Part shown: positions 47,800 through 59,206 of the stretch, in pieces
Numbering within the stretch: the first letter of the stretch is position 1
How the letters are laid out: every line of letters begins with the position of its first letter
DNA from: Hyphomicrobiales bacterium
GTDB lineage: Bacteria > Pseudomonadota > Alphaproteobacteria > Rhizobiales > Xanthobacteraceae
Assembly: GCA_009377755.1 (NCBI GenBank)
Contig: WHTM01000023.1
Location: forward strand, 5,977-69,976
Direction: 5' to 3'
Length of the DNA: 64,000 nt
The notes under the pieces: model-generated
What the model saw: the letters and a program-made list of their open reading frames with translations, nothing else
The model's database searches: none
What the model was told of the DNA's origin: nothing
Program-made: the position numbers and the translations under genes

Positions 47800-48717
47800 A
47801 TGACCTTTCCCGACATCGTCACGGACCTGAAATCGCGCATGCCGCAATTGCGCGGCCGCCTCATCGCCAACGAGCCGCTCGCGCCGCTGACCTGGTTCCG
47901 GGTCGGCGGTTCGGCGCAGGTGCTATTCATGCCGGAGGACGAGGCGGACCTCGCGCATGTCTTGGCCAACCTCGCGCCCGAGATTCCGGTTACCGTCATC
48001 GGCCTCGGCTCCAACCTGATCGTGCGCGAGGGCGGCGTGCCCGGCGTCGTCATCCGGCTTGGGCGCGGCTTCAATGAGGTGCGTGTCGAGAGCGGCAATT
48101 GCATCCTCGCCGGCGCTGCCGTGCCGGACGTGAAGGTTGCACGCACCGCTCAGGAGGCGGGCACCGGCGGCTTATCGTTCATGCGCGGCATTCCCGGCGG
48201 GATCGGCGGCGCTCTGCGAATGAACGGTGGGGCGTATGGTCGCGAGACCAAGGATACGCTCGTCGAGGCGCGGGCGGTCGATAGGCAGGGCCGCATCCAT
48301 GTGCTCACGAATGCCGACATGCACTACACCTACCGTCACTGCGGGGCGCCGGAAGACCTCGTCTTCACCTCGGCACTGTTTCAGGGGGCCCCCGGCGATC
48401 CCGCCGTCATCGCCGCGGAGATGAACTCCATCACCGAGGCGCGCGAGGCGACGCAGCCGATCAAGAGCCGCACCGGCGGATCGACCTTCAAGAACCCACC
48501 GGGGCAGAAGGCGTGGCAGCTGATCGACGCCGCCGGCTGCCGAGGGCTGGCCGTTGGCGACGCGCAGGTCTCCGAGCTGCACTGCAATTTTCTCATCAAT
48601 CGCGGCAGCTCCACGGCCGCCGACATCGAGACGCTCGGCGAGACGGTGCGCGCCCGGGTGAAGGAAGCGTCGGGCGTAGAACTTGAGTGGGAGATCAAAC
48701 GGATTGGGATCGCATAG
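47800..48717 (+). CDS. murB: UDP-N-acetylenolpyruvoylglucosamine reductase
   Basis: A 305-residue FAD enzyme of the type lacking the E. coli insert. FAD-binding blocks are [34 protein letters not shown] and [22 protein letters not shown]; the late [24 protein letters not shown] and [11 protein letters not shown] are also typical. The catalytic Ser/Cys is in the [12 protein letters not shown] block. The start at 47800 ([10 protein letters not shown]) is preferred; ATG at 47782 is possible. No clear ribosome-binding site is visible, which may reflect the inserted repeat just upstream. Confidence 0.95.
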
Positions 48718-48718
48718 C

Positions 48719-49915
48719 GTGGCAACCAACGACCATCCCATCATCGTCGTCGGCGGCGGGCTCGGCGGGGCTGCCGTCGCGCTTGCGCTCGGCCGCAAGG
48801 GTCGGCGCGTGCGCCTGCTGGAAAGCGCGCCGGAGCTTGGCGTGATCGGCTACGGCATCCAGCTTGGTCCGAACGTGTTCCCGATGTTCGACCGACTAGG
48901 GGTGCGCGACGCGGTGATGCAGGTCGCGACTGTCCCGTCCACCGTGCGCATGCGTGACGCCTTCACCGGGGAGGATATCACGGAGTTGCCGACCGGGAAG
49001 CCGTCGTTCATCGCGCGGTTCAAGGACCCCTACATCATCATTCACCGAGTCGACCTGCATATGGCGCTGCTCGATGCCTGCCGGCAGATTCCGTCGATCT
49101 CGCTCGAGCCCGACATGACGGTCACCGGATTCGAAGATCACGGCGACCGGGTCACAGTCACCATCCAGGATGGCCGCACCATCGACGGCGCCGCCGTCAT
49201 CGGCGCGGACGGCCTCGGCTCGCGCATTCGCGCCCAGCTCCTGAACGAAGGGAGGCCGCGGCTCAATGGCTACGTCGCGCACCGCACGATCGTGCCGATG
49301 GAGGCGTTGAAGGCCGACGTGTCGCGCGACGACGTGGTGCTGTGGGCCGGCCCCGGATTCCACATCGTGCATTATCCCCTGCGTCATTGCGCGTTGTTCA
49401 ACATCGTCGCGGTGTTCCGCACGTCGACGTATTTGGAAAAAGGCGAGATCGAGAAGTATCGTGCCGAGCTGATCCACACTTACCGCGACGCGCACCCCGG
49501 CATGAAGGGTCTGCTGACGATGATGGATCTGGAGCGGCGCTGGGCAATCTCCGACCGCGATCCGATCCGGAACTGGAGCAGGGGCCGGGCGACGCTGCTC
49601 GGCGATGCGGCGCATCCGACGCTGCAGTCATACGCGCAAGGCGCCTGCATGGCGATCGAGGATGCCGTCTACCTCGGCGAATTGGTCGATCTGGCCGGCG
49701 ACGACTTCGCCGCCGCGTTCCAGCGCTACCAGGCCGCACGCTGCGTGCGCACCGCGCGGCTGCAACTGGAGTCGCGCTCGCTCTGGGAGATCTATCATGC
49801 CGAAGATCTCGCCCGCGAGGCGCTGTGGCAGGAATTGTCAGAGCGCTCCGACGAGGACGTCTACCAGTGCCTCGCCTGGCTCTATGACGGCGTGTCGCTG
49901 CCGTGGGCGTCCTGA
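48719..49915 (+). CDS. FAD-dependent aromatic monooxygenase, 3-hydroxybenzoate 6-hydroxylase-like
   Basis: A 398-residue group A flavoprotein hydroxylase. The FAD motif is IIVVGGGLGGAAVALALGRKG, then the family GIQLGPNVFPMFDRLGV, the DG motif VIGADGLGSRIRAQLL and the second FAD motif RATLLGDAAHPTLQSYAQGACMAIEDAVYL. Overall it resembles 3-hydroxybenzoate 6-hydroxylase (gentisate route) and salicylate hydroxylases. It starts with GTG one base after the murB stop. Its 3' end overlaps the convergent TRAP permease gene by 34 bp. By position it begins the accessory island in the dcw cluster. Confidence 0.88.
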   Translation: MATNDHPIIVVGGGLGGAAVALALGRKGRRVRLLESAPELGVIGYGIQLGPNVFPMFDRLGVRDAVMQVATVPSTVRMRDAFTGEDITELPTGKPSFIARFKDPYIIIHRVDLHMALLDACRQIPSISLEPDMTVTGFEDHGDRVTVTIQDGRTIDGAAVIGADGLGSRIRAQLLNEGRPRLNGYVAHRTIVPMEALKADVSRDDVVLWAGPGFHIVHYPLRHCALFNIVAVFRTSTYLEKGEIEKYRAELIHTYRDAHPGMKGLLTMMDLERRWAISDRDPIRNWSRGRATLLGDAAHPTLQSYAQGACMAIEDAVYLGELVDLAGDDFAAAFQRYQAARCVRTARLQLESRSLWEIYHAEDLAREALWQELSERSDEDVYQCLAWLYDGVSLPWAS

Positions 49916-52149
49916 AGGCGCGCCGTCCGCATCGCGAGCCACTGCCTGCCGAGTACGGCGACCCCGACCGCAACACCGGCCACGGCCATATGCTCGATGT
50001 TGCGGCCGATGATCGGCTCGACGAAGGCTTCGACAATGCTCGGGAATATCAGCAACAGGCCCGACAGCAACAACAGCCAGCGCTCCAGCGACGTGGTCTT
50101 GCGCAACGCCCAGCCCTGTGCAGCGGCGCCGAGAGCGATCATGCCGAGCGCGGCCTTTATGACGACCGCGACGATGTCGATCCACGAACCGTCCTTCGGC
50201 ATGGTCAGCAAGAGCCCGACGCCCTGCGGGTCGAGCACGAACACGAACGGCAACAGAAATGCCGGCATGGTGTACTTCCACGCCTGTAGCGTGGTCTTGT
50301 AGGGATCGCCGCCGGTGATCGCCGCGGCAGCGAACGGCGACAGCGCCGTCGGCGGTGAGACCTCGGACAGCACCGCGTAATAGAAGATGAACATGTGGGC
50401 GGCAAAGTCCGGCACGCCGAGCTTGATCAGCGCCGGCGCGGCGATGACCGCGCACATGATGTAGGACGCCGTCACCGGCACGGCGAGGCCGACGATCCAG
50501 ACGATGGCGCCTGTGAAGATGGTGGTCAGCAGCAGGCTGCCCTGCGCATAGCCGATGATGATGTCGGCAAAGCGCTGGGCGAGGCCGGTGAGCGTGACGA
50601 CGCCGACGATGATCCCGGCGGTGGCGCAAGTGGCGGCGACATTGAGAACGCCGGTGGTGCCGTCGCGCATCGCATGCACGAAGCGCGCGGTGGTCGGCGC
50701 AAGTCGCGGCGCAAACAGGCCGGTCAGCGCCGCCGCGAGCAGCGACACGAACACCAATGGCGTGATCAGCGGTGTGAGCGACGCGGAGCCGGGAACCCTG
50801 AGCAGGTCGAGAACCACGATCACCAGGCACGCCGTCAGTGCCAGCGCCGCCCACCAGGGCACGATGGCGGAATCCGAGCGAAGCCTGCTCGCCGCGATTG
50901 CCAATATCGTCGCCCAGAAGACCGCCAGCACCGGCGAGAAGCCGAGCAGCATGAAGGCGATGATTGAGATGAGCGAGCCGAAGTGGAACCAGTAGCTCTT
51001 GGTCAGCCGCCACACCTCACCCTTGGCCACCAAGAGCTCGCCTGAACCGCCGAGCTTGCGCGCGTCCATCTCCACCATGACGAGAATGGCGAGATAGTAA
51101 AGGACCGTTGGAATCGCCGCCATCAGGATCACGTCGAAGTACGATATCTTGAGGAACTCGGCGATCAGGAAGGCGGCGGCGCCGAGCACCGGCGGCGAGA
51201 TGATGGCGCCGATGCCACCGGCGGACAAAAGGCCGCCGGCGGCATTCTTCTCGTAACCGGCTTTCTCCAGCAGCGGATAGGCGACCGTGCCGATCGTCAC
51301 CGTCGTCGCGACGCCGGAGCCGGACGGGCCGCCGAGCAGGAACGACGACAACACCACGGCGCGGCCCGCAGCATTGCGCTTGCCGCCCATTGCGGCGAAT
51401 GAGAAGTCGATGAAGAAGCGGCCCGCCCCCGAATGGTGCAGGACCGCGCCGAAGATCGTGAACAGGATGATCAGGCTCGACGCCACATCGACCGTGGTGC
51501 CGAAGATGCCTTCCAGCGTCATGTAGAGGTGGGCGACCAGGTCTTCCAGCGCGTAGCCGCGGTGCGTCCACGGCGCTGGAAGATGGTTGCCGAAGATTGC
51601 GTAGAGCAGAAAGGCGACCGCCACGGTCGGCATGATGAAGCCGGTGGCGCGCCGCGTTCCCTCCAGCAGCAGCACGATGAAGGCGACACCGACGAGATAG
51701 TCGGTCGTCTCCGGCATCGTCGCGCGGTCGCCGAAGTAGGCGCCTTGCGAGAGCACGTAGAGGATGGTGCCGACGCTCGCCGCGGCGAGCAGATAGTCCC
51801 ACCAGCGGATGCGGTCACGGAACCGATGCGCCATCGGGAACAGGAGGAAGCAGAGCAGCAGCACCATGCCGACGTGCGCCGGACGCAGCACGTGCGCCGG
51901 CACGATCTCGTAGGCGGCGTAGAGGTGGAAGAACGAGACGCAGACCGCGATCGTCGTGATCATCGTGCCGATGCGGCCGCCGAGGCGATTGAATGCGCCT
52001 TCCTCCTCTTCGATGTACCGCTCGATCTTCTCGCGGGCGTCCAGCGACAGCGCGCCCGCGGCACGCGCCGACGCCAGTTCGGCCATCGAAGGGCTAGGTT
52101 CCACGGAAGGCTCCCCTGCGGGCGTTTCCGTCATTGCCGGGCTTGCCAT
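49882..52149 (-). CDS. TRAP transporter fused 4TM/12TM permease, TAXI type
   Basis: A 755-residue membrane protein. A cytoplasmic N-terminus with an acidic helix (LDAREKIERYIEEEEGAF) leads to the small-subunit-like helices, then the large DctM-like part: FLLGGPSGSGVATTVTIGTVAYPLLEKAGY, GGIGAIISPPVLGAAAF, AVPVTASYIMCAVIAAPAL, VLSEVSPPTALSPFAAAAITGG. These mark the TAXI-TRAP fused permease family. With the binding protein encoded next to it, it would take up an organic acid, perhaps the aromatic acid used by the adjacent monooxygenase. The start codon could also be the ATG six codons later. Confidence 0.92.
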   Translation of the reverse strand: MASPAMTETPAGEPSVEPSPSMAELASARAAGALSLDAREKIERYIEEEEGAFNRLGGRIGTMITTIAVCVSFFHLYAAYEIVPAHVLRPAHVGMVLLLCFLLFPMAHRFRDRIRWWDYLLAAASVGTILYVLSQGAYFGDRATMPETTDYLVGVAFIVLLLEGTRRATGFIMPTVAVAFLLYAIFGNHLPAPWTHRGYALEDLVAHLYMTLEGIFGTTVDVASSLIILFTIFGAVLHHSGAGRFFIDFSFAAMGGKRNAAGRAVVLSSFLLGGPSGSGVATTVTIGTVAYPLLEKAGYEKNAAGGLLSAGGIGAIISPPVLGAAAFLIAEFLKISYFDVILMAAIPTVLYYLAILVMVEMDARKLGGSGELLVAKGEVWRLTKSYWFHFGSLISIIAFMLLGFSPVLAVFWATILAIAASRLRSDSAIVPWWAALALTACLVIVVLDLLRVPGSASLTPLITPLVFVSLLAAALTGLFAPRLAPTTARFVHAMRDGTTGVLNVAATCATAGIIVGVVTLTGLAQRFADIIIGYAQGSLLLTTIFTGAIVWIVGLAVPVTASYIMCAVIAAPALIKLGVPDFAAHMFIFYYAVLSEVSPPTALSPFAAAAITGGDPYKTTLQAWKYTMPAFLLPFVFVLDPQGVGLLLTMPKDGSWIDIVAVVIKAALGMIALGAAAQGWALRKTTSLERWLLLLSGLLLIFPSIVEAFVEPIIGRNIEHMAVAGVAVGVAVLGRQWLAMRTARLQDAHGSDTPS

Positions 52150-52296
52150 CGCAGGTAGGGTCTACCCGACTTGCGACATTTCATAACCTCGGAACTCGGG
52201 CGAGCCCGGGTTCCGATGCAATCCATCCGTTCGAAAAAAGATGGACCTCCCGGTCAAGCCCGGAGGTGACGCGCGCGCTGATGAGCGGCAAGGCCG

Positions 52297-53265
52297 CTAT
52301 TCGACCTTGATGCCCTTCTCCTTGAAGTATTTCAGCGCACCCGGATGCCACGGAATCCCGGCGCGGCTCGAGGTCTGCCATTCCGGCTTGACGTTGAGCG
52401 CTTCCTTGTGAACGAGGGCGAGGTCCGCCCGCTTCTCCAGCATCACCTTGGTGAGATTGTAGGCGAGGTCATCGGGCATATTGGCGTTCACCGCCATGAT
52501 GTTCCAGACGGTGTTGTTCTTTGCATCCTTCTCCATGCCCTTGTAGGTGGTGGCTGGGATCGTAGCCTCGGCATAGAGCGGGCCGTACTTGGCGTTCATC
52601 TTCGAGGTGAAGTGTGCAATGTCGATAATCTTGATCTCGGTGTTCGGCGTCGAGGCGAGGTCCGTTACCGCAGCCGTTGGCAACCCGCCGACCCAGAAGA
52701 ACGCCGAAATTTTCTTGTCCTTGAGAGCATTCACGCTCTCAGCGACGCCAAGGCGCTCTTTCGTGATGTCCTTCGTGTCGCTGAGATCGGCCGCTTCGAG
52801 AACGCGGACGGCATAGACCTCGGTCGCGCTGCCGGGCGAGCCGGTCGAGACGCGTTTGCCCTTCATGTCCTCGATCGTGCTGATGCCGGTGCCTTCGACC
52901 GTTACCGCGTGCATGTGGTTGGGATACATCACCGCCAGCGCTCTGACTGGCAGCTTCGAGGGAAACTTGCCCTTGCCGTTGATGGCATCCCAGGCGGCAT
53001 CAACCTGGCTGAAGCAGAGATCGGCCTTGCCGGACGCGATGAGCTGGAGGTTCGCCACTGAGCCGCCGGTGACTTGGGCGGTTGCCGTGACCCCGGGAAT
53101 CTCCTTGCCGAGAATATTGCCGAAGCCACCGCCAAGCGGATAGTAGACGCCGCCGGTCCCGCCGGTCGCGATCGACAGGATTGTCTTCTGCTGCGCCAGC
53201 GCGCCGCCGGCAAGCGTGCCGGTCGCCAGCACGACGCATCCCGCAAGCCAAATCTTTCTCAGCAT
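52297..53265 (-). CDS. TAXI-family TRAP transporter solute-binding protein
   Basis: A 322-residue periplasmic binding protein with a signal peptide ending GGALAQQ. TAXI hallmarks are SIATGGTGGVYYPLGGGFGNIL, GSVANLQLIASGKADLCFSQ, GKRVSTGSPGSATEVYAVRVLEA and, near the end, HPGALKYFKEKGI. GGAGG before the ATG supports the start. It lies upstream of the permease gene, 147 nt apart, in the same direction. The ligand cannot be told from sequence. Confidence 0.94.
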   Translation of the reverse strand: MLRKIWLAGCVVLATGTLAGGALAQQKTILSIATGGTGGVYYPLGGGFGNILGKEIPGVTATAQVTGGSVANLQLIASGKADLCFSQVDAAWDAINGKGKFPSKLPVRALAVMYPNHMHAVTVEGTGISTIEDMKGKRVSTGSPGSATEVYAVRVLEAADLSDTKDITKERLGVAESVNALKDKKISAFFWVGGLPTAAVTDLASTPNTEIKIIDIAHFTSKMNAKYGPLYAEATIPATTYKGMEKDAKNNTVWNIMAVNANMPDDLAYNLTKVMLEKRADLALVHKEALNVKPEWQTSSRAGIPWHPGALKYFKEKGIKVE

Positions 53266-53579
53266 CGTCTTTTCCTCCCTGGTCACCCCTTGAGGGGCGT
53301 CAAACCCCATTGTCCGCGAGGTCAGGGTGTTAATCCAGCAACAAATTGACGCTGTCGCGCCTGTTCGCCCGACCCCTTACGGGATCCTGATTCTCGGCCG
53401 TGTGCCGGCTTCATCGCAGGTGATGCGGAAAGGCACTGCGCTATTCCGCCCGACGAACTCTCTGGCCGGCCGAACGTACGTCATCACCGAGTTGTGACTG
53501 ATTTTTTGCTTGTCGGCCAAAGTTGCAGAGCTCTCGACGGCTATCCTGTCATGAACACCTGGTTGGTAGGAGTATCCCT
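53266..53579. other. Divergent intergenic region
   Basis: This 314-bp gap separates the minus-strand binding protein gene from the plus-strand DUF302 gene, so it must hold both promoters. No gene and no strong operator were recognised. A T-rich patch (GACTGATTTTTTGCTTGTC, near 53497) lies about 75 bases before the DUF302 start. Confidence 0.4.
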
Positions 53580-54026
53580 ATGCGCCTTTTGAGCGTGACG
53601 ATGATGGCCCTCGCCCTGTCGCTACCGGCAATGGCTGCGGACGAGTTGACCATCAAGCCGAGCAAGTACCCGGTCAAAGAGACGCTCGACCGGCTAACGG
53701 CCGCACTCAAGGACAAGGGGATCGCGCCCGTTGCCCGGGTCGACCACGCAGCGGCAGCCAAGGCTGCCGGACTCGCGCTCAAGCCCACCGAGGTCCTGCT
53801 GTTCGGCAATCCCAAGCTCGGCACGCCGCTGATGCAGGCCAACCGCCACATTGCGATCGAGTTGCCGATGAAGGTGCTCGTCTGGGAGGACGATGCGGGT
53901 AAAGTGTGGCTCGGCTATACGGCGCCGGCGACGCTCAAGGCGCGCTACACGATCGAGGGCCGCGACGACGTCCTGAAAACCATGGCGGGCGCACTTGCGG
54001 CGTTCACGAGCGCGGCCGCGAACTGA
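53580..54026 (+). CDS. Exported DUF302-domain protein
   Basis: A 148-residue protein with a signal peptide ending AMAADE. The DUF302 fold is shown by SKYPVKETLDRLTAALKDKGIAPVARVDH, the middle block EVLLFGNPKLGTPLMQANRHIAIELPMKVLVWED and GKVWLGY. An AGGAG site precedes the ATG. DUF302 proteins are small periplasmic proteins with unknown function, sometimes linked to metal or stress response. It is the last intact gene of the murB-ddl insertion. Confidence 0.85.
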   Translation: MRLLSVTMMALALSLPAMAADELTIKPSKYPVKETLDRLTAALKDKGIAPVARVDHAAAAKAAGLALKPTEVLLFGNPKLGTPLMQANRHIAIELPMKVLVWEDDAGKVWLGYTAPATLKARYTIEGRDDVLKTMAGALAAFTSAAAN

Positions 54027-54038
54027 CCATCGCGCCGG

Positions 54039-54106
54039 CATCTGTTTCATCGATGCTCCCACCGCGGTCGTTTGGGACAGGCTCGCGCGGCTGGAGAACC
54101 TCCAAC
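54039..54106 (+). pseudogene. N-terminal fragment of an SRPBCC-family protein
   Basis: A short stretch reads CFIDAPTAVVWDRLARLENLQLWS, the pattern of the first strand and helix of polyketide-cyclase/START-type SRPBCC proteins (IDAPxxxVWxxLxDxxxxxxW). It ends in unrelated sequence after about 25 codons and has no start codon. It is debris just after the DUF302 gene. Confidence 0.5.
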
Positions 54107-54114
54107 TCTGGTCG

Positions 54115-54257
54115 CACCTCATTCGCCGTGCCTGCCCCACGCCCTCCGGCGACATGGCGTAGACCGCGCCCGTGCATCGCTCGTAGCCGTCCGGCTGGCC
54201 TTCAGCCCAGGTCAAGTATTTGTCCGTGGTGAGAGGCGCTCGCGACAAGGCGGTCAT
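54115..54257 (-). pseudogene. N-terminal fragment of a Uma2-family (DUF820) endonuclease
   Basis: From ATG at 54257 the minus strand reads MTALSRAPLTTDKYLTWAEG followed by QPDGYERCTGAVYAMSPE, the typical start of Uma2/DUF820 proteins (MTxDEFLxWAExQPxRYELxDGxVxAMSPE). Similarity stops after about 45 codons, then unrelated sequence follows. The catalytic PD-(D/E)xK core is missing, so it is a remnant. It abuts the SRPBCC remnant on the other strand. Confidence 0.7.
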
Positions 54258-54365
54258 GGCGCCACGGTCGGATCATGAAGGCGTGGCATGCGCGAGCGCG
54301 CGGGGCTATGTCCACTGACTCAAATCAGTGATTCGATCCCAACTGATTCGGAGAGACCCCAGCGC

Positions 54366-55283
54366 ATGCAGCACGTCGCGGTTTTGATGGGTGGATGGTC
54401 CGCGGAACGCGAGGTGTCGCTGCACTCAGGCCAAGCCAGCGCCGATGCCCTGGAACGCCAGGGCTATCGGGTGAGCCGGGTCGACGTCGGGCGCGACATC
54501 GCCTCCGTGCTCGACGGCCTCCGGCCGGACGTGGCGCTCAACATGCTGCATGGCCGGCCTGGTGAGGACGGCACAATCCAGGGTCTGCTGGAAATCCTGG
54601 GCATCCCCTACAGCCATTCCGGGGTGCTCGCCTCGTCGATGGCGATGCAGAAGGATGTCTCCAAGGTGTTGTTCCATGCCGCGGGGGTGCCGGTCGCCGA
54701 GGGTGTCGTGGCGACGCGGTTGGAGGCGGCCAAGGCGCACCTGCTGCCGCCGCCCTATGTTATCAAGCCGATCGCCGAGGGATCGAGCGTCGGCGTCTTC
54801 ATCGTCACCGAGGCGCATGCCCACCCGCCGCAGGAGCTCTACCGCGACGACTGGGCATTCGGCGACTGGGTGATCGTCGAGACCTACGTTGCAGGCAAGG
54901 AGATCACCTGCGCGGTGGTCAAGGATCAGCCGACCGACGTGATCGAGATTGTCCCGGCCGTCCGGTTCTACGACTATGAGGCCAAATACGCCCCCGGCGG
55001 CTCGAAACATCTGCTGCCCGCTCAAATTTTATCAAAAGTTTACCAAGAGGTCCGAAGACTGACGCTTGCGGCGCATCGCGCCCTCGGCTGCCGAGGCGTG
55101 AGCCGCGCCGACTTCCGTTATGACGATCGCATGGAGGGGACCAGCGGTCTGGTCTGCCTGGAAGTGAACACCCAGCCCGGCATGACCGAGACGTCGCTCG
55201 TGCCCGAGCTAGCCGCCCACGCGGGCATAACGTTCGATGAGCTGGTGAAATGGATGGTGGACGACGCCTCGCTCAATCGCTGA
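54366..55283 (+). CDS. ddl: D-alanine--D-alanine ligase
   Basis: A 305-residue ATP-grasp ligase. Motifs are VLMGGWSAEREVSLHSG, LHGRPGEDGTIQGLLEILGIPYSHSG, YVIKPIAEGSSVGVFIV (ATP-grasp lysine) and CLEVNTQPGMTETSLVPELA (metal ligands). It makes the D-Ala-D-Ala used by MurF. The start at 54366 (MQHVAVLMGG) follows a GGAGA. Its stop overlaps the ftsQ ATG (TGATG). Confidence 0.97.
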   Translation: MQHVAVLMGGWSAEREVSLHSGQASADALERQGYRVSRVDVGRDIASVLDGLRPDVALNMLHGRPGEDGTIQGLLEILGIPYSHSGVLASSMAMQKDVSKVLFHAAGVPVAEGVVATRLEAAKAHLLPPPYVIKPIAEGSSVGVFIVTEAHAHPPQELYRDDWAFGDWVIVETYVAGKEITCAVVKDQPTDVIEIVPAVRFYDYEAKYAPGGSKHLLPAQILSKVYQEVRRLTLAAHRALGCRGVSRADFRYDDRMEGTSGLVCLEVNTQPGMTETSLVPELAAHAGITFDELVKWMVDDASLNR

Positions 55284-56218
55284 TGCAGGCGAGGCGCAAA
55301 TACGCCGCAGCTTTGGGGTGGGCGAAGGCGCCGAGGGCGCCGCGCCCGCGCGGAGCATTGCGGTGGGCACGCTTCGCTTTGCCCACCCTACGAATCGCAC
55401 GGGCGTTGGCGCGCCGCCGTGGCGCCGGTGTCGTCGCTTCGGCGCTGCTGCTTGCAGGAAGCCTGGGCTACGGCGTGATCCGCGGCGGCCACATGCCAGC
55501 CGTCGCCGAGGCTCTCACCGATGCCCGCGACGCCGTGGCGAATACCGCCGGCTTCCGCATTGCTGCAGTCGCGCTTAGCGGCAATCAGCAGATTACGCGC
55601 GAGGAGATCCTGGCGACCGCGGGCATCACCGGCCGCAAGTCGCTGTTCTTCTTTGACGTCGACGTGGCGCGGGCGAAGCTCAAGACCAATCCCTGGATCG
55701 CCGACGCGACCGTGCTCAAGCTTTATCCCGACCGGCTGCAGATCGGGATTACCGAACGTCGGCCGTTCGCGCTGTGGCAGATCAACGGCAAGGTGTTGGT
55801 CGTCGCCGATGACGGGACCGTGCTGGAGCCCTATGTCGCCCGGCGCTTCACGCGGCTGCCGTTCATCGTCGGTCGTGGTGCGCAGACCCGTGCCAAGGCC
55901 TTCGTGGCGCAGCTCGACCGCTATCCTTCCATCCGGGAGCAGGTGCGCGCCTCGGTCCTGGTGGCGGAACGGCGCTGGAACCTGCGGCTCAAGAGCGGGA
56001 TCGATGTGCGGCTGCCGGAGGATGAGGTCGAGCGGGCCCTGGAGCGGCTGGTCAGGCTCGACAACGAAAAGAAGCTGTTGTCACGTGACATCGTCGCAAT
56101 CGATCTGCGTCTTGCGGACCGCGTGGCGGTACGGCTGTCCGAGGACGCCGCCAAGGCGCGCGAGGACGCCCTGAAGGCCGCCGAGAAGAAGGCCAAGCGC
56201 AAGGGAGGCGATGCATGA
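55283..56218 (+). CDS. ftsQ: Cell division protein FtsQ with repeat-derived N-terminal segment
   Basis: A 311-residue bitopic protein. After a basic cytoplasmic N-terminus there is one helix (GAGVVASALLLAGSLGYGVI), then the POTRA domain (FRIAAVALSGNQQITREEILATAGI...NPWIADATVLKLYPDRLQIGITERRPFALWQ) and the FtsQ domain. It recruits FtsL/FtsB. The ATG at 55283 overlaps the ddl stop. Codons about 11-37 (AALGWAKAPRAPRPRGALRW...) are encoded by a palindromic repeat with GGGTGGGC/GCCCACCC arms, so this part is probably not ancestral. Confidence 0.94.
   Translation: MQARRKYAAALGWAKAPRAPRPRGALRWARFALPTLRIARALARRRGAGVVASALLLAGSLGYGVIRGGHMPAVAEALTDARDAVANTAGFRIAAVALSGNQQITREEILATAGITGRKSLFFFDVDVARAKLKTNPWIADATVLKLYPDRLQIGITERRPFALWQINGKVLVVADDGTVLEPYVARRFTRLPFIVGRGAQTRAKAFVAQLDRYPSIREQVRASVLVAERRWNLRLKSGIDVRLPEDEVERALERLVRLDNEKKLLSRDIVAIDLRLADRVAVRLSEDAAKAREDALKAAEKKAKRKGGDA
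55315..55392. repeat. Palindromic repeat inside the ftsQ N-terminal coding region
   Basis: GGGTGGGC (55316-55323) and GCCCACCC (55381-55388) are perfect inverted arms. The right part, GTGGGCACGCTTCGCTTTGC, is a hairpin of its own (GGGC..GCCC, AAGCG). The sequence fits a common dispersed repeat and encodes 26 in-frame residues of the cytoplasmic tail. Confidence 0.75.
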
Positions 56219-56244
56219 GTCGCCGCGTACGCGGGCAGCAGATG

Positions 56245-57345
56245 CTATGATGCAGCGCTGCCGCTCGTGTCGCCCAGCCATTCGCGGAGCAGGGTGTCAT
56301 AGGCTCCGCTCTCCATGATTTTCAGGAGCGCCTCGTCGACGGGGCGGCGCAACGGCGAGCCGACCGGAAACGCGATGCCGTAGTTCTCTGGCCGGAACGG
56401 CTTGCCGGCAATGTGGACCCGCCCCTCCTTCAGGGCGTAGTGCTGGATCACCGGCGTGTCGTAGACCACGGCATCGACGGTGCCGTCGAGCAGGCTCGCG
56501 GCGCAGGCGGAAAAGTCGGCGTGCTCCACGATCCGCGCCCTGAACCCGGCAATATATTCGGCGCTCGTCGAACCCTTCACTACCGCCACGCGCTTGCCCG
56601 CCAGATCGTTCGGGCCGTTGATGTGCCCGTGCAACGTGCTCAGCGTGAGCGAGGTGGTCGCGAAGGCGGTGAAGTACGCGATGAACAGGATTCCGGCATA
56701 GAGCCAGATCATCGCGACGACGCGGGGGAACACGCGCCGCGGATAGCCCTGCGGCGCTCCGCCCATGGATTCGGCGCACCAGAACGTGGCGTCGAAAATG
56801 CCGGGAAAGTAGGGCTCGCGGATCGGCAGCCCCTCGTCGCGCCCGCGCGCGATCCACCAGAAGATATGCGCGGGAACCAGGATGACGAGCGCGAGAATGC
56901 CGAGCACCACCAGCATCGTACGCGAGAACATCATGCCGACCACGTCGACGTGCCGGTCGTCGGCGCGCACCATGATCGACAGGCCCGACCGGAACATGGG
57001 CTGGGAGAAGGCCATCACCGCCGCCCGTTCGGCGGTGATCGAGATGGCGGAAATCCCAACCGGGTTCTTGCCGGTGCGCACGGCCTCGAGCAGGGCGGGA
57101 AGGCTGTCGTAGGTTTGGAAACGGGTCTTCAGTCCGAGATCGGTGGCGATCGCGCGCCAGAGGTCGATGCTGAGGCCGGTCAATTGCCCATCCGCGCGCG
57201 CATTGACGAAGGGCGACACGACGCGCGTGGCAACGACGATTTCGCCACCAGTCGCCCGCTCGCCCGCCGGCTGTGCTGCGAGCGGCCCGTTGAACCAGGC
57301 CGCGGCCAGCAGGACGATAGCGAATGTGGTCAGAGCGCGCTGCAT
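56245..57345 (-). CDS. Ionotropic glutamate receptor-like channel with substrate-binding domain
   Basis: A 366-residue membrane protein. The layout is: signal peptide; first lobe of a family 3 solute-binding domain (GEIVVATRVVSPFVNARADGQLTGLSIDLWRAIA); helix (MLVVLGILALVILVPAHIFWW); a pore-like hairpin (YFPGIFDATFWCAESMGGAP); a helix (VVAMIWLYAGILFIAYFTAFATTSLTL); and the second binding lobe (NDLAGKRVAVVKGSTSAEYIAG...DAVVYDTPVIQHYAL). This is the order of bacterial GluR0-type ligand-gated channels. The potassium signature TVGYG is absent. It is antisense between ftsQ and ftsA. A GTG at 57363 is an alternative start. Confidence 0.82.
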   Translation of the reverse strand: MQRALTTFAIVLLAAAWFNGPLAAQPAGERATGGEIVVATRVVSPFVNARADGQLTGLSIDLWRAIATDLGLKTRFQTYDSLPALLEAVRTGKNPVGISAISITAERAAVMAFSQPMFRSGLSIMVRADDRHVDVVGMMFSRTMLVVLGILALVILVPAHIFWWIARGRDEGLPIREPYFPGIFDATFWCAESMGGAPQGYPRRVFPRVVAMIWLYAGILFIAYFTAFATTSLTLSTLHGHINGPNDLAGKRVAVVKGSTSAEYIAGFRARIVEHADFSACAASLLDGTVDAVVYDTPVIQHYALKEGRVHIAGKPFRPENYGIAFPVGSPLRRPVDEALLKIMESGAYDTLLREWLGDTSGSAAS

Positions 57346-57631
57346 GAATGCCGGGGATCGCACCTGGAGAATCGGTCAGGCGGGCGACGAGAACGGCGAA
57401 ACACTATTCGGAAATCGCCAGCAGCGGTAGGGGCCGCGCCGCCACTGCGAGCGCGGAGCGAAGCTGGGGCGAAATCGGCTTCACACGGAGAGGAGGCCGT
57501 GCAGCGGCACTCGGAATGCCGCTTCGGTCTACGCGGCGCATGAGCCCGCCTTTCGGGAGTTGGTCGGCGAGTACGAGCCCCGTCGGCGTAGGGCGAGGCA
57601 TGCCTCTCCCCCGACCAGCGCGACATCCCTC

Positions 57632-57712
57632 AATCTTTACTAAACATTTACCAAAATTACCGAAGACTGCCGTTTGCGGCGCATTGCGCGGCTCCGGAGG
57701 CGCGCGCCGCGC
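57632..57712 (+). pseudogene. Decayed duplicate of an internal ddl segment
   Basis: Between 57647 and 57690 the sequence matches ddl (55039-55082) without gaps at 36 of 44 positions, with shared blocks TTTACCAA, CCGAAGACTG and TTGCGGCGCAT. In the matching frame it reads IYQNYRRLPFAAHCA against VYQEVRRLTLAAHRA in Ddl. No start codon or continuing gene is present. It lies in the 538-bp gene-free gap (57346-57883) before ftsA; the rest of that gap shows no gene. Confidence 0.65.
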
Positions 57713-57813
57713 TCACTTTTGGTGCGATGGTTGCGTGGCGGGGCCGGCCGGCCGGTCCGAATTCGATGGGATGGGTTGAGCGTTGAGCGCGCTTGTCGGA
57801 ACGATCGGAGCTT

Positions 57814-57852
57814 CCTCACCCCGGCCCTCTCCCCTGCGGAGAGAGCGAGAGG
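57814..57852. repeat. Palindromic repeat directly upstream of ftsA
   Basis: CCTCACCCCGGCCCTCTCCC followed by CTGCGGAGAGAGCGAGAGG forms CTCTC/GAGAG arms. It ends 31 bases before the ftsA ATG and belongs to a widely dispersed proteobacterial repeat. It may affect the ftsA leader. Confidence 0.6.
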
Positions 57853-57883
57853 AGAATCTTGCGCCTGTGGCGGGAACGGGCGC

Positions 57884-59206
57884 ATGAGCCGCATCGCCTA
57901 CGGCCTCGCCCCGAAGATGAAGCCGGTGTCGCCGAAGCGCTCCGCCGTGATCGCCGCGCTCGACGTCGGCACCAGCAAGGTCGCCTGCCTGATTGCGCGC
58001 CTCAAGCCCCGGTCGCCGCACGACGTGCTGCCGCGGCGGTCCCACGACGTCGAAGTGTTCGGCATCGGCCACGCCGGCGCCCGCGGCATGAAGGCCGGAA
58101 CCGTGGTCAATCTCGCCGAGGTCGAGGCATCGATCGGACAGGCGGTCGATGCGGCCGAGCGCATGGCGCGGGTGCAACTCGAATCCGTCATCGTCTCGGT
58201 GTCCGCGGGACGGCTCGGCAGCGATCTGTTCGCGGCATCGGTCAACGTCGCCGGTTCGGCGGTCGCCGACGCCGACATCGCCCGCGTGCTTGGTGCCGGC
58301 AGCCGGCATTCCGTCCGCCAGGGCAGGGCGGTGCTGCATTCGCTGCCGATCGGCTATTCGCTCGACGAGACCCGTGGCGTCAGCGAGCCGCGCGGCATGC
58401 TCGGGCAGCGCTTCGGCGTCGACATGCACGTCGTCACCGCCGATGTCGCCGCGATACGGAACATGATGCTGGCAATCGAGCGCTGTCACCTCGGCGTCGA
58501 AGCGTTGGTGGCGAGCCCCTACATGTCGGGACTTGCCGTGCTTGCCGACGATGAAGCCGACCTCGGCACAGCCGTCGTTGAGATGGGCGCAGGCACCACG
58601 ACGCTTGCGGTGTTCAGCAGCGACCGTTTCATTCACGCCGACGGTTTTGCACTCGGCGGTCACCATGTGACCCTGGACCTCGCGCGCGGACTCAATGCGC
58701 GTATTGCGGATGTCGAGCGAATCAAGACGTTCTATGGCAGTGTGCTCGCCGGGGCATCGGATGACCGCGACATGATCACGGTACCGCCGGGCGAGGACGA
58801 CGATCGCGACCCGCCGCAGTTCGTTCCGCGCGCCAGCCTCGTACGGATCATCAAGCCGCGCGTGGAAGAGATTCTGGAGATGGTGCGCGACCGGCTTGCC
58901 GCATCGTCGTTTGCCGCGGAGCCGCGCGGACGCGTGATTCTGACCGGCGGCGCCAGTCAGCTTACGGGGTTGACCGAGCTGGCGTCGCGCATTCTGGGCC
59001 GTCCGGTGCGGATCGGACGGCCGCTCGGTGTTTCCGGCCTCACCGAGGCTGCAAGAGGGCCGGCCTTTGCCGTCGCGGCAGGCCTTCTGGTGTACCCGCA
59101 GGCGGCACAGCTCGAACATTTCGAACCGCGGCGAACGCGGCACGTCATGACAGGAACTGGCGGTTACATCACACGGGTCGGACGATGGCTTTGCGAGAGC
59201 TTCTGA
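57884..59206 (+). CDS. ftsA: Cell division protein FtsA
   Basis: A 440-residue actin-like protein. Phosphate motifs are [46 protein letters not shown] and [21 protein letters not shown]. The FtsA-specific 1C domain ([31 protein letters not shown]) and a C-terminal amphipathic end ([15 protein letters not shown]) for membrane binding are present. It tethers FtsZ to the membrane. The ATG at 57884 fits the family length. Here it is separated from ftsQ by 1.7 kb, which is unusual. Confidence 0.96.

Follow-up and report, generated by a model that had tools for sequence, protein, structure and literature searches.

The stretch of DNA analysed here, called the window, is 64 kb long, and carries between the division genes ftsQ and ftsA, on the opposite strand, a gene whose product is, judging by sequence and predicted structure, a genuine bacterial relative of the animal glutamate-receptor channels (iGluRs). 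It is of the NpGluR0-like Group 2 type, and not of the K+-selective Synechocystis GluR0 type. The best explanation overall, which we consider probable, is that of a Group 2, NpGluR0-like iGluR homolog that would form an amino-acid-gated tetrameric channel without K+ selectivity, and that owes its position to a one-off insertion.

Bacterial iGluRs have been divided by Ger et al. (2010) into two groups: Group 1 has a K+ filter, and Group 2 has a P region like that of no known selectivity; both retain an arginine in S1 and an aspartate in S2, and Group 2 was proposed to be nearer to animal receptors than Group 1 (PMC2950845). Synechocystis GluR0 (slr1257) is a Group 1 K+ channel that alters cell volume at high KCl (PMC13099474).

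Layout and identity of the receptor

The gene occupies positions 56245..57345 of the minus strand, from an ATG at 57345 to a stop at 56245, and encodes 366 aa in as many codons; on re-reading, the position and strand given by the first-pass annotation proved exact. Its codon-position GC (0.64/0.49/0.87) is a normal coding signal when compared inside the 64-kb window. The same annotation described a lobe-helix-pore-helix-lobe protein, and both Pfam and the structure model recover this order, here given with minus-strand coordinates: the S1 half of the ligand-binding domain (residues 35-128; 56962..57243), the transmembrane helix M1 (142-166; 56848..56922), a re-entrant pore helix (179-194; 56764..56811), the pore loop or filter GGAPQGYPRR (195-204; 56734..56763), the inner helix M2, equivalent to eukaryotic M3 (205-239; 56629..56733), and the S2 half of the ligand-binding domain (243-358; 56272..56619). 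Upstream of S1 lies a putative signal peptide of approximate extent (residues 1-25; 57271..57345), a hydrophobic run that is modelled as a helix at residues 2-18 followed by disorder. Between pore loop and M2, the linker carries three K/R and no D/E, a basic character that fits its expected cytoplasmic side.

The strongest Pfam match is SBP_bac_3, split across residues 37-358 (8.7e-25); the iGluR ligand-binding domain is matched more weakly (7.2e-6), and Lig_chan is matched over residues 194-251 at 6.8e-5, with a score that falls short of the Pfam cut-off when this protein is taken alone. All 28 family members scanned match both SBP_bac_3 and Lig_chan, and neither they nor the receptor have a Pfam match to the ABC permease domain BPD_transp_1. 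The best PDB match of the sequence is 2pyy, the ligand core of the Nostoc punctiforme GluR0 with L-glutamate (1e-45). Profile A2, an alignment of 14 relatives, matches the same entry at 3e-86, and also finds GluA1/2/4 and delta-1, in one unbroken alignment that covers S1, pore and S2 (best E 5.5e-36).

An AlphaFold2 model of the whole chain, built with 28 sequences, has a pLDDT of 87.9 and places helices at residues 142-166, 179-194 (a short one) and 205-239 between two lobes. The top Foldseek hits of this model are the LBD-TMD chains of AMPA receptors and 2pyy; with AMPA subunits, the alignment extends over about 375-385 columns at about 20% structural-alignment identity. VIA-align superposes the receptor on 2pyy with Z 30.5 and an rmsd of 1.4 A over 210 residues (44% identity), and on 1ii5, the Synechocystis GluR0, with Z 29.1 (28% identity). 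The membrane part was also modelled separately, so that the binding domain could not drive the fold match. It again yields a helix, a short pore helix, a loop and a helix, and all of its 50 best PDB matches are AMPA or NMDA pores, KcsA or a Kir chimera, at modest E values of 0.017-0.05: the re-entrant segment is thus retained in the pore modelling that the first-pass annotation had proposed as a check.

The residues that would hold the ligand, R107, S259-T260 and D296, are retained in the receptor (alignments A1 and A2). Ser259 and Thr260 (56566..56571, minus strand) belong to a GST motif at residues 258-260, are respectively invariant and near-invariant in A2, and are candidates for the distal-carboxylate contact, a role that we take from general knowledge of iGluRs. 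Arg107, in SITAER (57025..57027, minus strand), is invariant in A1 and is the expected alpha-carboxylate contact, and Asp296, in VYDTP (56458..56460, minus strand), near-invariant in the same alignment, is the expected alpha-amino contact (roles from PMC2950845). Arg107, Asp296 and the GST motif, together with the lack of TVGYG, are what assign the receptor to the Group 2 type. The first-pass annotation left the ligand open; R107 and D296 would narrow it to an alpha-amino acid, and since S259-T260 would be available for a side-chain carboxylate, the first candidate would be L-glutamate.

The filter and the receptor family

The pore hairpin reads CAESMGGAPQGYP at residues 190-202, just as first quoted, and has no TVGYG. 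In place of a TVGYG-type filter stands ESMGGAPQGYPR, at a site where relatives usually have TLATQADxMPR/K, so the early expectation that the channel would not select for K+ is upheld. Two substitutions stand out: the near-invariant filter glutamine of alignment A2 is A197 in the receptor, and the usual acidic residue (D/E) is Q199, an acidic residue that is also lost in two relatives, L032 and L033. The receptor does not carry the motif TLATQ[AG][DE], which is a trait of the sampled majority and lies outside the published definition of Group 2.

A maximum likelihood tree was computed for 100 sequences, namely P0001, the receptor of the window, and its relatives. Their filters are ATQ-like in 62 sequences (mostly TLATQADxMPR/K), of AMTQ type in 14, TVGYG in three, and irregular in 21. 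P0001 groups, with support 100/99, with sequences from Xanthobacteraceae MAGs (L032, L033) and from Roseiarcus (L151, L183), and every filter of this clade is irregular: ESMGGAPQGYPR, EAMIGQASATAK, EKVLLVAEGRPG and EKLVSVAEGKPE. Its exact sister, L032/L033 at support 96/63, is uncertain because of a long branch. The comparison with GluR0-type proteins that had been suggested thus places P0001 with non-K+ cyanobacterial and alphaproteobacterial sequences, away from those with a K+ filter; the closest homologs, at about 43-47% identity, include Nostoc, Rhizonema and Scytonema as well as Hyphomicrobiales. One may conjecture that P0001 and its Xanthobacteraceae and Roseiarcus relatives are a distinct class in which the filter was remodelled to suit a different ion, for example as a non-selective or divalent filter. 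We consider this unlikely; if it were true, the remodelled filter would be a parallel in nature to the change that led from the K+-selective GluR0 to the cation-selective animal receptors.

Two other sets of sequences deserve mention. The 14 AMTQ-filter receptors (for example L009, L011, L013, L049 and L050) share the layout of the receptor and form a separate, well-supported branch at about 30% identity, with AMTQRGIGNFGPR-type filters that seem to resemble neither the K+ nor the ATQ type. Four iGluR-like sequences (L168, L174, L179 and L180), with filters such as GMLAAAPDDAPRH, come from contigs labelled as Mycobacterium, Mycobacteriaceae and Bifidobacterium MAGs, and some of these labels may be wrong.

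At E <= 1e-20, homologs are found in 68 of 391 genomes and in 13 of the 47 genera of the family; a scan of genome contigs returns 111 matches when based on an alignment, and none when based on the single protein. More distant homologs are carried by Rhizobium and Agrobacterium plasmids, and this patchy spread is consistent with transfer. The nearest homologs are 47% identical to the receptor, and a genome that is close by its FtsA (G011, 73%) has a receptor from another branch (L004). In the neighbourhoods of the homologs, we found no neighbour gene family shared between clades.

The ftsQ-ftsA junction

On the plus strand, ftsQ extends over 55250..56218, with an approximate start codon (Pfam POTRA_1 and FtsQ_DivIB_C), and ftsA over 57884..59206 (TIGR01174), its start revised to the ATG at 57884 by comparison with relatives; ftsZ comes next. 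The interval between the ftsQ stop and the ftsA start, 56219..57883, is lineage-specific and measures 1,665 bp. Both genes were located in 29 relatives. In 27 of these, 17-26 nt separate the FtsQ stop from the aligned position in FtsA, and the other two have distances of 79 and 127 nt; in most, ftsA begins within the ftsQ stop, with a 4-nt overlap (ATGA, GTGA or TTGA). None of the 29 has a match to the receptor gene at this site. The first-pass annotation was therefore right that the receptor breaks a normally contiguous pair, and its question about conservation in relatives receives an answer: the site is empty in these 29, and the position belongs to this lineage. The extra sequence of the 127-nt relative resembles a short palindromic repeat. 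An independent small insertion at the same junction, of about 100 bp and with palindromic GTCCCCGCTTTCGCGGGGAC, is seen in L062 (G012), and implies that the overlap is dispensable.

At the ftsQ stop stands GCATGAGTCGC (56213..56223, plus strand), a near-copy of the ftsA start with a relic ORF, MSRRVRGQQML; the true ftsA start has GCATGAGCCGC (57882..57892, plus strand), reading MSRIAYGL. The 11-mer pattern of these two sequences occurs at these two sites only in the 64 kb. The simplest reading is that an insertion at the ftsQ/ftsA overlap would have duplicated the ftsA start, so that a copy now stands at either end of the inserted DNA. Apart from this near-copy, nothing stood out in a search for direct and inverted repeats around the receptor gene, and no mobile-element ends were found. 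Base composition is uniform across the locus, so that the insertion is either old or from a donor whose composition was close to that of the host. Among the genomes searched, this is the only one of its genus.

Upstream of ftsA lies a dispersed repeat-like element, CTCACCCCGGCCCTCTCCCC (57815..57834, plus strand), which has 13 sites in the genome at up to three mismatches, versus one for a reversed control. An AT-rich stretch, TCAATCTTTACTAAACATTTACCAAAATTACC (57628-57660 of the window), lies between the receptor and ftsA within a region of 67% GC, and could be a promoter or regulatory site of either gene; scans with promoter and terminator consensus sequences gave nothing above chance. The dcw cluster is longer than usual between murB (MurB_C at 48409-48705) and ddl as well: a block at 48706-54335 contains a fused TRAP permease (DctM), a TAXI-type binding protein (NMT1_3) and a DUF302 protein, and the distance from MurB_C to ftsA is 9.2 kb here, about 5.6 kb in G002 and G012, and about 2-3 kb in many relatives.

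In another family of the order, the genome G075 carries a distant GluR0-like gene (L105, 11548-12633) with filter SVTTSGKPPSRKN; it is antisense, and lies past the far end of the division cluster, some 1.7 kb from bamD. Its product belongs to another subfamily, at 31% identity, and we take its placement to be a coincidence. No sampled homolog lies at the ftsQ-ftsA site, and the dcw genes tested are absent from the other homolog neighbourhoods, about 98 loci, G075 excepted.

Rival readings, proposed working and significance

Because of the filter changes, the main rival to a conducting channel is an amino-acid sensor anchored in the membrane: it would have the iGluR fold, but a pore that no longer conducts and a filter that has drifted free of selection. 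The alanine at the near-invariant glutamine, the acidic residue missing from the receptor and from L032/L033, and the irregular filters of the clade (EAMIGQASATAK, EKVLLVAEGRPG, EKLVSVAEGKPE) all speak for it. However, the pore helix, the length of the loop, the proline and basic residues that follow it, and the gate stretch of M2 are intact, and the protein has no extra cytoplasmic domain, hence no obvious output; the homolog neighbourhoods contain no signalling domain or partner that could read it out. We regard such a sensor as somewhat unlikely. An ordinary periplasmic binding protein, or a fusion of one with a permease, which would have refuted the first-pass annotation, could be suggested by the top rank of SBP_bac_3 and by the pipelines that annotate relatives as 'transporter substrate-binding domain-containing protein', but M1, P and M2 split the SBP domain, no permease family is matched, and both profile and structure match iGluR subunits through the pore, which leaves the idea a negligible chance. 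The fusion with a permease is ruled out by Pfam, by profile A2, and by the whole and membrane-only models.

The seat of the gene in the dcw cluster raises two further possibilities. That the receptor works in cell division could be read from its place between ftsQ and ftsA, and from the distant relative of G075 near bamD in the same cluster. Yet it is antisense to the cluster, the site is vacant in the 29 relatives, the G075 protein is of a different subfamily, none of the other homolog loci has any of the dcw genes tested, and neighbours are not shared between clades; we consider a division role very unlikely. The location could also be an artefact of the assembly, which comes in 95 contigs, for a genus known from one genome among those searched. 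But the joins on both sides are clean and leave ftsQ and ftsA whole; the near-copy of the ftsA start stands at the ftsQ stop, GC and codon-position GC are continuous, and the locus is about 10 kb from the nearer end of a 73.7-kb contig, all of which make an artefact extremely unlikely. The position probably reflects one chance insertion event, and not a role in division.

From sequence and models, the protein is thus most likely an amino-acid-gated channel with an altered, non-K+ selectivity. Its binding lobes would face the periplasm, and four subunits would assemble into an inverted pore-loop channel. The clamshell would close on an alpha-amino acid gripped by R107 and D296, and closure of the lobes would pull the M2 helices apart and open the pore; the M2 stretch FTAFATTSLTLSTL can be aligned with the gate region SYTANLAAFLTV of animal receptors. 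Ions would then cross a filter lined by the small residues Met-Gly-Gly-Ala, not selective for K+. As for ftsA, it must now be translated from a start of its own, and perhaps transcribed from a separate promoter.

Among known systems, Group 2 and its Nostoc representative 2pyy are closest, with the same domain order and ligand residues, no K+ filter, and the nearest solved core; the receptor differs by its filter, ESMGGAPQGYPR instead of TLATQADxMPR/K, and by its seat in the dcw cluster. Synechocystis GluR0 (1ii5) shares the S1-M1-P-M2-S2 order and the fold of the ligand-binding domain, but has a GYG K+ filter that the receptor lacks. With AMPA, kainate and NMDA receptors, the ligand-binding domain and a pore of M1-M3 type are shared, and matched by the family profile in one stretch, whereas the N-terminal domain, M4 and the cytoplasmic tail are missing here. 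In a literature search that covered few subscription journals, we found no paper with functional work on NpGluR0 or on conduction by bacterial receptors with a non-K+ filter.

Receptors of this kind have been catalogued since 2010, and what sets this one apart is its unusual filter and lineage-specific position; it does not represent a novel type of system. In automatic annotation, receptors like this one are concealed under the label of substrate-binding transporter components. The locus indicates that a tightly overlapping pair such as ftsQ-ftsA can be split by another gene, and the small clade with a differing filter, which includes the cultured Roseiarcus fermentans DSM 24875 (L151), offers natural variants for the question of selectivity.
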